Source: an uncultured Lachnospiraceae bacterium (GTDB lineage Bacteria > Bacillota > Clostridia > Lachnospirales > Lachnospiraceae). From it: a stretch of DNA of 53,642 bases. The position numbers and the translations under genes are program-made. The notes below the pieces were generated by a model. The model saw nothing but the letters and a program-made list of their open reading frames with translations, had not been told where the DNA came from and searched no databases. Positions 7,356 through 37,056 of this stretch are shown piece by piece. How positions within the stretch are numbered: position 1 is the first letter of the stretch; each line of letters opens with the position of its first letter. Location of the stretch: positions 1-53,642 of the forward strand of contig CAMUZQ010000008.1 of the NCBI GenBank assembly GCA_947165275.1, written 5' to 3'.

Positions 7356-8015
7356 TTATATCGTACAGTTCCTGATATCAGCCTTCATCTGCTGTCTCAG
7401 CATATCGATGCTGTCAAATCTCATCTCAGGTCTTATAAACCGCAAAAGCTCCACCTCGATATCCTGCCCGTACAGATCCCCGTCAAATCCGGGGATATGG
7501 GTCTCCGAGGTCAGGACATCATCATCCTCTACCGTGGGCCTGACCCCTATGTTCGTAACACCTTCAAGACAGCTGACTCCGATATGCACTCTCGAATGAT
7601 ATACTCCGTATGGAGGCAGGAGCTTATCCTCATCCGGTATAATATTTGCCGTGGGTATGTCGATCGTCCTGCCGAGTCTTTTTCCCTGCACGACCTTACC
7701 GCTTATCGAATATGGTCTTCCGAGCATTGCCCCGGCTCTTTCCATATCACCCTCTGCCACGGCATTCCTGACAAGGGTTGAGCTTATCACCTCATCCTTG
7801 TACCTGACCTTATCTATCTCAACCACCCGGCGCTTAAAGTCTCCATCCTGCTCTGAAAGGATCCGTCTGACAAGCTCCATATCCCCGGCTCCCTTATCGC
7901 CGAAGGAAATATCGCACCCTGCAGCTATAAGCCCTGCATTAAGCCTTCCTATGAGCATCTCCCTGACAAAGGCCTCCGGAGAAACCGAGACCGTATCCCT
8001 GTTTACAGGCATCAT
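7356..8015 (-). CDS. ribF: RibF C-terminal part: rest of FMN adenylyltransferase domain plus riboflavin kinase domain
   Basis: This 219-residue reading frame holds the second half of the FAD synthetase nucleotidyltransferase domain (FVREMLIGRLNAG, GDMELVRRI, ISSTLVRNAVAEGD) and a complete riboflavin kinase domain (KVVQGKRLGRTIDIPTANI, YGVYHSRVHI, GVTNIGVRPTV, IPGFDGDLYG). It is in the same frame as the 83-residue frame just upstream, from which it is separated by a single TAA. The sequence runs TAA ATG ATG, so reinitiation at 8015 is conceivable. The kinase domain (riboflavin to FMN) may therefore still be made, while the adenylyltransferase (FMN to FAD) would need two pieces to associate. 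Confidence 0.85.
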   Translation of the reverse strand: MMPVNRDTVSVSPEAFVREMLIGRLNAGLIAAGCDISFGDKGAGDMELVRRILSEQDGDFKRRVVEIDKVRYKDEVISSTLVRNAVAEGDMERAGAMLGRPYSISGKVVQGKRLGRTIDIPTANIIPDEDKLLPPYGVYHSRVHIGVSCLEGVTNIGVRPTVEDDDVLTSETHIPGFDGDLYGQDIEVELLRFIRPEMRFDSIDMLRQQMKADIRNCTI

Positions 8016-26988: not shown

Positions 26989-27152
26989 CTAGTATAGCGT
27001 TTCTTAAATAACTGTACCAAATGCTTGCCTGCTCACCTGATAGCACATTTCCAAAAGCCTCGGCGTAGCCCGCTACGCCTGCGTTTTTGAAAACGCACTC
27101 TCAGGCAAGCATTCTGCGCATTAGTCCAGTTATTTTTCGAACGCTATACTAG
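26989..27152. repeat. CTAG-bounded palindromic element, copy A
   Basis: A 164-bp imperfect inverted repeat. Outer arms are CTAGTATAGCGTTT and its partner AACGCTATACTAG, then ATAACTG/CAGTTAT, then AATGCTTGCCTG with CAGGCAAGCATT. The tip is GGCGTA-GCCCGC-TACGCC. Copies B and C have the same layout but different stem sequences. It contains no open frame. The two ends read C-TA-G, consistent with insertion at a CTAG site with TA duplicated. Confidence 0.85.
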
Positions 27153-34880: not shown

Positions 34881-35795
34881 CTAAACTGCAGCCGCTTTTT
34901 TGCCTTTCATGGATCTTACGATCCGGACCTCATCCTCATCTCTGTAATACCTGTACAGGCTGTAGGAAAGGATCTCCTCCCTCGACACCTGTGTGTCATT
35001 GACCTCTGCTATCATATCGGTAAGGTAGTCCGGATCTCTGACATCACATTCCGGCACAAGGATGAGCTCATGAACTGATGAAGGCAGTATGAAGAGATCA
35101 TTTCCGAGGTTATCAGCGAATTTTTTCAATACCCCGTTATATATCAGTGCGGCAGCGCCGTTTATCCTTTCCTTATTCGAAAGGATATACATGGGGATCT
35201 CATTCGGGATATCTGCTGCGGGAGCGCCCATATCATACAGAAGATCCTTCATGGTCCAGATGGCTGAGGGCAGTATTCTCGGAGTATTCCTTAAGGCAAG
35301 CGTCCTTAATTCCTCCTCGTCTGTGTGCCAGATTTCCATATGCTCCCGTCTTATCATGACCGATGAAAATGCATTCCTGAAGTTACCCATATACACGCCG
35401 AAAACAAGAGCCAGATCCAGATAGCCAAAGCTCGGGACCTTCTGGAGCATAGCAGCATTTTCATGCGCATTTATGAGCTTGAAGAAGATCCTGTCCCTGA
35501 CCCATTCAAAATCTGAAAACCTCTCAGCCTCCACATCCGGACCGTTCCTGTTCTCGGAATATATCCGCAGTATCTCATTTACTATATCCTCTATATCTCT
35601 TCCGTCGCAGTAATCCGTATAGAATTCATCCATATAGATCGTAGGCGCTATCCATTTATCGTTTTCCTTTATGGATATCCCCTTATGCATCACCGAATTG
35701 TTTTTCATCGCCTCATATATCGATACCGAAAACTCCGGACCGCATATTCCGGCAAGCTTGCTTCTTACAAGTTCATTGAAATCATCATATCTCAT
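34881..35795 (-). CDS. DUF5688 family protein
   Basis: The 304-residue protein matches a family of unknown function that is common, often in several copies, in Lachnospiraceae. Features: APTIYMDEFYTDYCDGRDIEDIVNEI near the start, the FEWVRDRIFFKLINAHENAAML segment, PSFGYLDLALVFGVY, and NTPRILPSAIWTMKDLL. It has no signal peptide or membrane segment, so it is cytoplasmic. The ATG has GGAGG 8 nt upstream. The palindromic elements B and C begin 37 bp upstream of the start codon and separate it from any far-upstream promoter. What the family does is not known. Confidence 0.85.
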   Translation of the reverse strand: MRYDDFNELVRSKLAGICGPEFSVSIYEAMKNNSVMHKGISIKENDKWIAPTIYMDEFYTDYCDGRDIEDIVNEILRIYSENRNGPDVEAERFSDFEWVRDRIFFKLINAHENAAMLQKVPSFGYLDLALVFGVYMGNFRNAFSSVMIRREHMEIWHTDEEELRTLALRNTPRILPSAIWTMKDLLYDMGAPAADIPNEIPMYILSNKERINGAAALIYNGVLKKFADNLGNDLFILPSSVHELILVPECDVRDPDYLTDMIAEVNDTQVSREEILSYSLYRYYRDEDEVRIVRSMKGKKAAAV

Positions 35796-35803
35796 TTTTC
35801 TTC

Positions 35804-35833
35804 CTCCTCTGTAATACGTGGTTTTATCTGACT
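35804..35833 (-). promoter_or_regulatory. Leader motif shared with nusA and the charged hypothetical gene
   Basis: The minus strand reads AGTCAGATAAAACCACG, then TATTACAGAGGAGG before the start codon. It is the third copy of this leader. Element B is inserted directly at its 5' edge (CTAGTCAG). Confidence 0.4.
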
Positions 35834-35993
35834 AGTACACCGAATAATAAATTTCTGGTACATTCACGCAGGATGATTGTTCATATGCAATGAAGCCGAA
35901 TGAGGCAATGCGGGCATTGCCGATTGAGGATGAAGCAGCATATGGGCAATCAGACAAGCGAATGTGCCAGTTAATTAATATTCGGGGTACTAG
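35832..35993. repeat. CTAG-bounded palindromic element, copy B
   Basis: A 162-bp imperfect inverted repeat. Outer arms pair GTACACCGAATAATAAATT with AATTAATATTCGGGGTAC and CTGGTACATTC with GAATGTGCCAG. Inner blocks are GCAGGATG, CATATGC/GCATATG and CAGACAAGC. The tip is GGCAAT-GCGGGC-ATTGCC. It is in the opposite orientation to copies A and C and shares its right-hand CTAG with copy C. Confidence 0.88.
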
Positions 35994-36149
35994 TGTCCTG
36001 ACACGTTCTTATTCGAACTAATTGCTTGTCTGATTTCCATATGCCGCGTTGTCGTTGGTCGCCGGTGCCCGCACCGGCTCCCGCCTCCGCCTTGCATATG
36101 AAAACCATCCTGCACAATTAGTTCAGAAATGAACGTGTCAGTACACTAG
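35990..36149. repeat. CTAG-bounded palindromic element, copy C
   Basis: A 160-bp imperfect inverted repeat. Outer arms pair CTGACACGTTC with GAACGTGTCAG and GAACTAATTG with CAATTAGTTC. Read on the minus strand it has GCAGGATG, CATATGC/GCATATG and CAGACAAGC, as in copy B. The tip is GCCGGT-GCGGGC-ACCGGC on that strand. The arms differ from copy B while the internal blocks agree. Confidence 0.88.
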
Positions 36150-36330
36150 CTCCGGCCTGCTTCTCTTTTTTTGTTTTGTGAACACTGACCTGATCCCAGG
36201 CGGTATGACGCTGTTCCGGAAATACGATGGCATATCACGGCCGGAGTATTTTGCAGATCTCAGATTGCCGGAAGTTAAAGATGATCTGAAATGGCCGCAT
36301 ATGTATCGGCTCATTAAGAATTATTTCAGA
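36150..36330. other. Intergenic remainder between element C and the efp terminator
   Basis: No convincing gene. A 64-codon plus-strand frame begins at 36178 but has no ribosome binding site and runs into the efp terminator. A run of T (36167-36173) follows element C on the plus strand without a hairpin of its own. Confidence 0.4.
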
Positions 36331-36383: not shown

Positions 36384-36941
36384 TTATACTCTGGACAGAT
36401 ATTCCCCTGTCCTTGTGTCTATCTTGAGCTTGTCTCCGATATTGACAAAAAGCGGTACCATAACCTGAGCGCCGGTCTCCACAGTAGCAGGCTTTGAAGC
36501 GCCTGTAGCCGTATCTCCCTTAAGTCCGGGCTCAGTCTCGGTAACCTCAAGCTCCACAAACAGCGGAGGCTCTACCGAAAAGACACTGCCCTTGTATGAG
36601 CAAACCTTACAGCTGTCATTCTCTTTGACAAATTTCATCGCATCGCCGATTATGTCCTGATTGATCCCGATCTGCTCATATGTCTCAGGATCCATGAAAT
36701 TATACACATCACCGTCACTGTAAAGATACTGCATATCCTTCCTGTCGATATGCGCCGTCTCAAATTTCTCAGTGGGACGGAAGGTCTTCTCAACGACTCC
36801 TGAGTTTATGACGTCCTTAAGCTTGGTACGGACAAAAGCCGCTCCTTTTCCGGGCTTAACATGCTGAAACTCCATAATCTGATAGACTGTACCATCTATT
36901 TCCAAGGTCACACCATTTTTAAATTCACCAGCCGATATCAT
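36384..36941 (-). CDS. efp: Elongation factor P
   Basis: EF-P relieves ribosome stalling at proline runs. The 185-residue protein has the three domains, with [17 protein letters not shown] at the start, the [17 protein letters not shown] loop whose Lys is the modification position in other species, and the C-terminal [44 protein letters not shown] signature. The start 36941 is chosen because AAGGAGG abuts the ATG at 36950 (no spacing) but lies 9 nt before the ATG at 36941. It has its own promoter. Confidence 0.96.
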
Positions 36942-37056
36942 CTGAATCATCCTCCTTAAGTTTTTGGCATGAGAATTCCGCGTCAGAAGACCAGATCCTG
37001 ATGCCGATCAATATAAACGTGATAAACACGCCATATCAGACGTAAATGCGTTTAAC

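Follow-up and report, generated by a model that had tools for sequence, protein, structure and literature searches.

Non-autonomous transposons of the MITE kind are commonly regarded as transposon ends and little else. ERIC, NEMIS/Correia and YPAL are MITE-like palindromes which fold as RNA hairpins, are restricted to narrower host groups and have arms that are alike in sequence. The elements described in this work share with them the character of MITE-like hairpin palindromes, and would be set apart by their wider host range and their dissimilar arms.

Bacterial MITEs are short, encode no protein, have terminal inverted repeats, generate a target duplication and have ends in common with an autonomous IS family (PMC10969869). 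The elements analyzed here are likewise short and noncoding, with inverted ends, a target duplication and, in other hosts, IS-shared ends; they differ in having a core common to Actinomycetota and Bacillota, a sharp length peak at 158 bp, covarying replacement of the arms and strand-biased mismatches (PMC10969869). A second related system is bcr1 from the Bacillus cereus group, a mobile noncoding repeat present in many copies and one of 18 repeat types of 100–400 bp, which is linked to a TTTAT motif and occurs in one species group only (PMC6542083). Our elements are also mobile, noncoding and multi-copy, and bcr1 would be set apart by this motif and host range (PMC6542083). The GTAG/CGTC REP sequences are 20–40 bp long and carry an unpaired GTAG or CGTC tag, the GTAG type being linked to a tyrosine transposase (RAYT) (PMC3733652). 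They are, as our elements are, palindromes in many dispersed and mostly intergenic copies, but with a length of about 150–160 bp and CTAG flanks our elements do not have the size given there for REP (PMC3733652). The palindromes reported here are a structured variant of the MITE kind which has no Rfam match and is not described in the literature searched, consisting mostly of titles and abstract openings; neither did these contain an account of its conserved core.

The window, i.e., the whole stretch of 53,642 nucleotides analyzed, includes three such palindromes, termed A, B and C. Their parts are the following:

26989..27152, minus strand: copy A, a 156-bp palindromic element with CTAG on each side
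27023..27031, minus strand: mid-arm block CAGGCAAGC of A
27062..27079, minus strand: tip hairpin of A, GGCGTA-GCGGGC-TACGCC in the minus-strand reading
27110..27117, minus strand: mid-arm block GCAGAATG of A
35832..35993, plus strand: copy B, a 154-bp palindromic element with CTAG on each side
35868..35875, plus strand: mid-arm block GCAGGATG of B
35904..35921, plus strand: tip hairpin of B, GGCAAT-GCGGGC-ATTGCC
35951..35959, plus strand: mid-arm block CAGACAAGC of B
35990..35993, no strand: CTAG common to B and C, which are arranged in tandem
35990..36149, minus strand: copy C, a 152-bp palindromic element with CTAG on each side, bearing the cross-phylum core
36024..36032, minus strand: mid-arm block CAGACAAGC of C
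36046..36055, minus strand: 3′ half of the core in C, ACGACAACGC in the minus-strand reading
36061..36078, minus strand: tip hairpin of C, GCCGGT-GCGGGC-ACCGGC in the minus-strand reading
36084..36093, minus strand: 5′ half of the core in C, AAGGCGGAGG in the minus-strand reading; its equivalent in B is AATGAAGCCGAATGAGG
36106..36113, minus strand: mid-arm block GCAGGATG of C

All three elements have terminal inverted repeats, and the GCGGGC of the tip lies on the plus strand in B and on the minus strand in C and A. Each of them is predicted to fold as one long hairpin. When each copy was folded as RNA together with a few flanking bases and compared with 200 shuffles, z values of −9.0 (B), −11.2 (C) and −10.5 (A) were obtained, and none of the 200 shuffles folded as well. 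The B-C pair is located between an elongation factor P gene (window positions 36384–36950) on one side and a gene for a DUF5688 protein (34881–35795) on the other.

An earlier description of these palindromes, the sequence-only reading, had provided the coordinates and the tip sequences of A, B and C, and re-reading the DNA returned the same values. CATATGC/GCATATG is kept in B and C, as that reading had pointed out. It had also found no open frame inside the elements and recognized no named family. In agreement with this, the longest of the ORFs of at least 30 aa overlapping B-C measures 58 aa, and A contains no ORF of at least 100 aa. Rfam searches at gathering thresholds, performed on the window and 16 further loci, returned tRNAs only, and nothing was retrieved up to an E value of 1 for window positions 35820–36160 or for positions 7480–7730 of locus L181. 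Two claims need to be narrowed. That the three copies share one layout is correct for the tip, the mid blocks and the ends, but A lacks the core. Similarly, GCAGRATG and CAGRCAAGC are present in A, B and C, but the former is not constant, a subfamily termed A1 having GACGAATG in this place (loci L050 and L053 of the same genome).

The draft genome from which the window comes (G000; 2.88 Mb, 153 contigs) contains 12 full copies of B (98–100% identity), five of C (99–100%) and six of A (99–100%), together with the A1 subfamily, 88–90% identical to A. Further copies, for which the sequence-only reading had proposed to look, hence exist both as full copies in the own genome and as matches in related ones, and the shared blocks persist when copies are aligned. 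As several contigs of this draft break off within a copy, and the elements tested have no Rfam match, the family is a ready target for annotation.

We tallied the flanks of the 31 full copies of G000 with both ends readable (12 B, five C, one long C, six A, four A1 and three long A/A1). The 4 bp on both sides were equal in 23 of them (22 CTAG/CTAG and one ATAT/ATAT) and unequal in eight. In six of these eight copies CTAG is opposed to CCAG or CTGG, which is unexpected from simple duplication. These unequal flanks (L024, L026, L029, L030, L049 and L006) vary more than the element bodies do; a T-to-C repair bias at CTAG might account for them. A different element is present in the isolate genome of Clostridiaceae bacterium 1XD21-72 (G064), where the ends could be read in 19 full copies; 18 of these are at 97–100% identity and one is at 90%. 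Its flanks were equal in 16 of the 19 copies (14 CTAG/CTAG and two CTAC/CTAC) and unequal in three. The equal ATAT/ATAT and CTAC/CTAC flanks, departing as they do from CTAG, point directly to a duplication of 4 bp.

Tandem copies with a common CTAG occur in the window and in two other contigs (G000:C6 and C122), and we interpret the B/C tandem as the result of one element inserting at the flank of another that was already present. At least four of the G064 copies adjoin a second palindrome family, which begins with CTAG followed by AGCGTGTTTGAAAA; at L369, L375, L384, L387 and L447 this second family lies beside copies or ends of the first, with a CTAG in common. Ends of approximately TWAGGA...TCCTWA instead of CTAG were seen in L135-L137 (G023), in L152 and L154 (G032) and, on one side only, in L169 (G000); the G032 elements with ends of this type have the same core and come from another family of the order. 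No clean empty site was found upon joining 19 flank pairs, searching 15 of them and scoring six candidates per genome. The site of L022 is spanned in five relatives, which show a single TAG-like motif there; we give this little weight, intergenic conservation being poor and the right flank having been taken a few bases short.

Small size, absence of a transposase gene, many dispersed and near-identical copies, inverted ends and target duplication are traits of MITEs, and the elements have each of these. The sequence-only reading was right in describing a palindromic family with constant blocks and covarying arms; it overlooked the recent mobility, the 4-bp flank duplications and the match of the ends to the IS5 family in other hosts.

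To establish the range of the core, the pattern AAGGCGGAGG N(20–50) ACGACAACGC was scanned over the GTDB genome set, and at least 120 genome stretches matched. Among the matches listed, all 120 belong, judging from their record titles, to Actinomycetota (Streptomyces, Kitasatospora, Nocardia, Gordonia, Nocardioides, Micromonospora, Rathayibacter and others) or Bacillota (Lachnospiraceae, Oscillospiraceae, Blautia, Peptococcaceae and others), phyla which we presume from the names. At least 30 pairs between the core flanks within 75 nt were formed in 102 of the 120 listed stretches; in seven of the other 18 the retrieved sequence did not include full flanks, and 11 had full flanks and fewer than 30 pairs. 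Five viral contigs also matched, three of them with such arms; L173 and L175, without such arms and without consensus, look like chance. A covariance model (R1), the training set of which includes C, recovered C with an E value of 3e-26 and B with 5e-13, and of A only 21 nt of the tip (E 0.064), so A belongs to the group by its ends, mid blocks and tip and not by the core. Within the genus of the window, the model matched 15 of 48 genomes at E 1e-5. The core is old; the three elements of the window are young copies and mobile.

For the analysis of pairing, window C was aligned with 41 of the 82 stretches having a 48–50-nt core and long flanks, chosen for spread (40 named genome loci and one viral contig). 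The claim that the arms change while keeping pairing was borne out, 23 of 28 pairs changing on both sides. Paired cells amounted to 90.9%, as compared with 66.1% upon shuffling and at most 50.8% upon sliding, and the covariation score was 0.663 against 0.212 (shuffled) and at most 0.159 (slid), a contrast that these controls somewhat overstate, as the structure was derived from the same alignment. Length is also nearly constant. A usable inverted end was available for 94 core elements, and 34 of these measure 158 bp between the flanks found; if only the 40 with CTAG-like flanks (at least six of eight letters) are considered, 29 measure exactly 158 bp and 38 lie at 157–160 bp, the end finder favoring CTAG-like flanks and not length. 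The same length is divided in different ways: 16 elements, all of them from Streptomyces or Kitasatospora records, show an arm split of 56+49+53, and nine show one of 54+50+54. A smaller group was placed at 170–173 bp by the end finder, for which we suspect wrong ends. The 158-bp rule is not absolute, the window copies measuring 152, 154 and 156 bp. That size and fold are nearly kept across two phyla while most of the letters change suggests that the folded strand does a job.

It could alternatively be considered that these are ordinary MITEs in which only the ends matter, the core being a frozen remnant spread through descent and transfer and the pairing a mere consequence of inverted-repeat symmetry. 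Near-identical copies, 4-bp flanks and IS5-family ends all fit such an origin, and core-less relatives are known (copy A and the Streptomyces palindromes L411 and L412). Nevertheless, a passive remnant should decay at the rate of the arms, and here the arms have turned over while the core, the length and the strand-biased mismatches (see below) stayed. We consider this explanation unlikely, albeit the most serious of the alternatives.

Mismatches between the arms were used to find out which strand folds. Arms were aligned to each other rewarding Watson-Crick pairs only, G.T and A.C being treated alike, in 52 arm clusters that represent 103 elements, among them window C. G.T mismatches (200) clearly outnumbered A.C mismatches (57), as did purine-purine (251) over pyrimidine-pyrimidine ones (50). 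G.T exceeded A.C in 47 of the 52 clusters and A.C exceeded G.T in three, with a p value of 4e-11 that is too small given that the clusters share ancestry. The bias was strongest beside the core (99:12) and lower in the outer part (57:24), the ratios expected from base composition alone being 1.2 and 1.4. When window C was left out (51 clusters), G.T was ahead in 42 columns and A.C in 12. Unrelated inverted repeats from the same loci and strand, used as a control, showed almost no bias (870:827). As a double-stranded end reads alike from both strands, the biased mismatches indicate that the core strand works in single-stranded form. The fold of one strand is constrained, a conclusion which rests on the wide set and not on A, B and C: in the window copies alone the G.T:A.C ratios (A, 7:3; B, 3:3; C, 3:4) show no clear bias. 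The folded strand would act as RNA, which we prefer because G.U is well tolerated there, or else as single-stranded DNA. The arms probably stay matched by occasional recopying of one arm from the other and by loss of unpaired variants. B copies have a 3′ end that either mismatches the 5′ arm (TTAATATTCGGGGTAC) or pairs fully with it (TTATTATTCGGTGTAC), as expected if an arm is recopied from its partner.

Our main reading, to which we give a probability of roughly 60%, is that elements of the A, B and C type are MITEs of a new structured kind, moved by IS5-family transposases, with a fold that is under selection. The outer part of the arms would be the terminal inverted repeat, bound in trans by an IS5-family transposase which would insert the element at CTAG and duplicate 4 bp; the inner arms, core and tip would form the hairpin of one strand, that of AAGGCGGAGG and GCGGGC, and selection would act on the fold of this strand beyond the double-stranded ends. 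The proposal of the sequence-only reading that an RNA or DNA hairpin is selected is upheld by the strand-biased mismatches of the wide set as far as a single-strand fold is concerned, but the pairing of the arms is in part no more than the usual symmetry of transposon ends, since in other hosts their outer portions match the terminal inverted repeats of the IS5 family. From Streptomyces to Lachnospiraceae the elements retain a core and an overall length while their arms are exchanged one pair at a time, and the mismatches reveal the folding strand; it thereby becomes testable whether functional RNA or single-strand structures can be carried by a MITE, and in what way a passenger switches transposase. 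A more far-reaching version, which we put forward tentatively and with somewhat less than even confidence, is that two phyla have in common a family of mobile elements acting as structured RNA or as a hairpin of single-stranded DNA, in which core, tip and the nearly fixed 158-bp geometry would serve the spread of the element itself and the exchangeable outer arms would come to match the resident IS5-type transposase, one passenger thus riding on many transposases.

Candidate partners with the corresponding ends were found outside the genus of the window. A plasmid of Streptomyces anulatus carries an 864-bp IS enclosed by CTAG flanks, with DUF4096 in one of its two frames and unannotated in the gene table, which starts with CTAG followed by GGGGTGTCTTGTCGATCA, the same 22 nt as in element L181 from S. 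longwoodensis. [Kitasatospora] papulosa has a CTAG-flanked stretch of 1532 bp, including an annotated IS5-family transposase, and its start, CTAG followed by GGTCTTTCGTTTGGATCA, is the same 22 nt as in element L188. Positions 2001–3540 of L410 are CTAG-flanked and contain an annotated IS5-family transposase; a SMI1/KNR4-family gene is enclosed there as well. The human-faecal record MT835477.1 includes an 878-bp IS with pieces of DUF4096 and DDE_Tnp_1, starting with CTAG followed by AGCGTGTTTGAAAAA; the second palindrome family of G064 opens with the same 19 nt. Ends and CTAG flanks of IS with PF13340 (DUF4096, the N-terminal domain of these IS5-family elements) and PF01609 are hence matched by two Streptomyces elements and by the AGCGTGTTTGAAAA family of G064. 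We take the elements with DUF4096 and DDE_Tnp_1 to be the IS427-like group of the IS5 family. Unlike these IS, the palindromes encode nothing and carry a structured core. Mobilization in trans by the IS5 family is well supported outside the genus of the window.

We infer that an IS5-type transposase also moves the window's own copies. In this genus, DUF4096 was absent from all 48 draft genomes, and no IS with the ends of the A, B or C families was found. DDE_Tnp_1 matches were present in five of nine genomes searched, with one locus in G000 and none in G007, G020 and G023, which are element-rich. Draft assemblies often lose repeated IS copies, and these absences are therefore weak. The ends of A, B and C matched 16, 0 and one stretches of viral contigs, respectively, none of them with the inverted partner end of an IS, and we read these matches as chance; C-type and G064-type ends gave no relevant match in plasmids. 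The G064 end pattern CTAGTGTTCCATCC, with one mismatch allowed, gave 40 matches, nearly all of them paired element ends, and none in the reversed control. No autonomous partner was found among the single ends of G064: L446 leaves the contig after about 135 bp, and at L447 no transposase-like ORF was seen by eye.

A strand-specific fold, and the copies in which one flank is CTAG and the opposite one a variant, would also be compatible with single-strand transposition of the folded strand into a CTAG target by a Y1/HUH enzyme of the IS200/IS605 or RAYT type. Y1 matches were obtained in 22 of the 48 genomes of the genus, G000 having two, one of them partial. However, the drafts G007, G020 and G023, rich in elements and incomplete, gave no Y1 match, an absence which is again weak, and the duplicated ATAT/ATAT and CTAC/CTAC flanks are not expected from such a pathway. 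We therefore disfavor a Y1 transposase as the mobilizer and consider this route very unlikely.

Taking into account the strong covariation and the intergenic positions, with only two of the 32 copies with both neighbors found lying between divergent genes, a host RNA element (terminator, mRNA stabilizer or regulator) spread by duplication and selected through its neighbor genes was also considered. Gene orientation was determined from simple long ORFs around 37 copies (27 in G000 and 10 in G064). For the 41 genes running into copies, transcription would give the conserved strand in 20 cases and its complement in 21. As there is no bias between sense and antisense, no role for host genes is visible, and the constraint is apparently one on the element itself. 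The presence of near-identical copies in unrelated places, with duplications of 4 bp, also argues against a host element, which we regard as highly improbable.

G000 also contains variants of the full-length element. Longer forms (L054, L055, L057 and L006) have an extra hairpin of about 50–64 bp in or near the tip. Four 3′ half elements (L007, L033, L034 and L058) start in the tip loop, their starts agreeing within one base. Their flanks, at the tip and the far end, are CTAG and CTAG in L007 and CTTG and CTTG in L034; L058 has CCAG and CTAG. Such halves might be incomplete reverse transcripts from RNA-mediated copying with 5′ truncation, for which both the start at the tip and the equal flanks of L034 and L007 speak. 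Nevertheless, a 5′ half (L079) is also present, L033 has no such 4-bp motif at the tip to match its other flank, and a cut at one end combined with cleavage at the tip explains the halves as well. We regard reverse transcription as very unlikely.

Four elements from Streptomyces plasmids (L317, L318, L411 and L412) each start at a gene's TAG stop codon, and insertion at CTAG leaves this stop intact. Two of them, L411 and L412, are core-less and short and have IS5-like ends.
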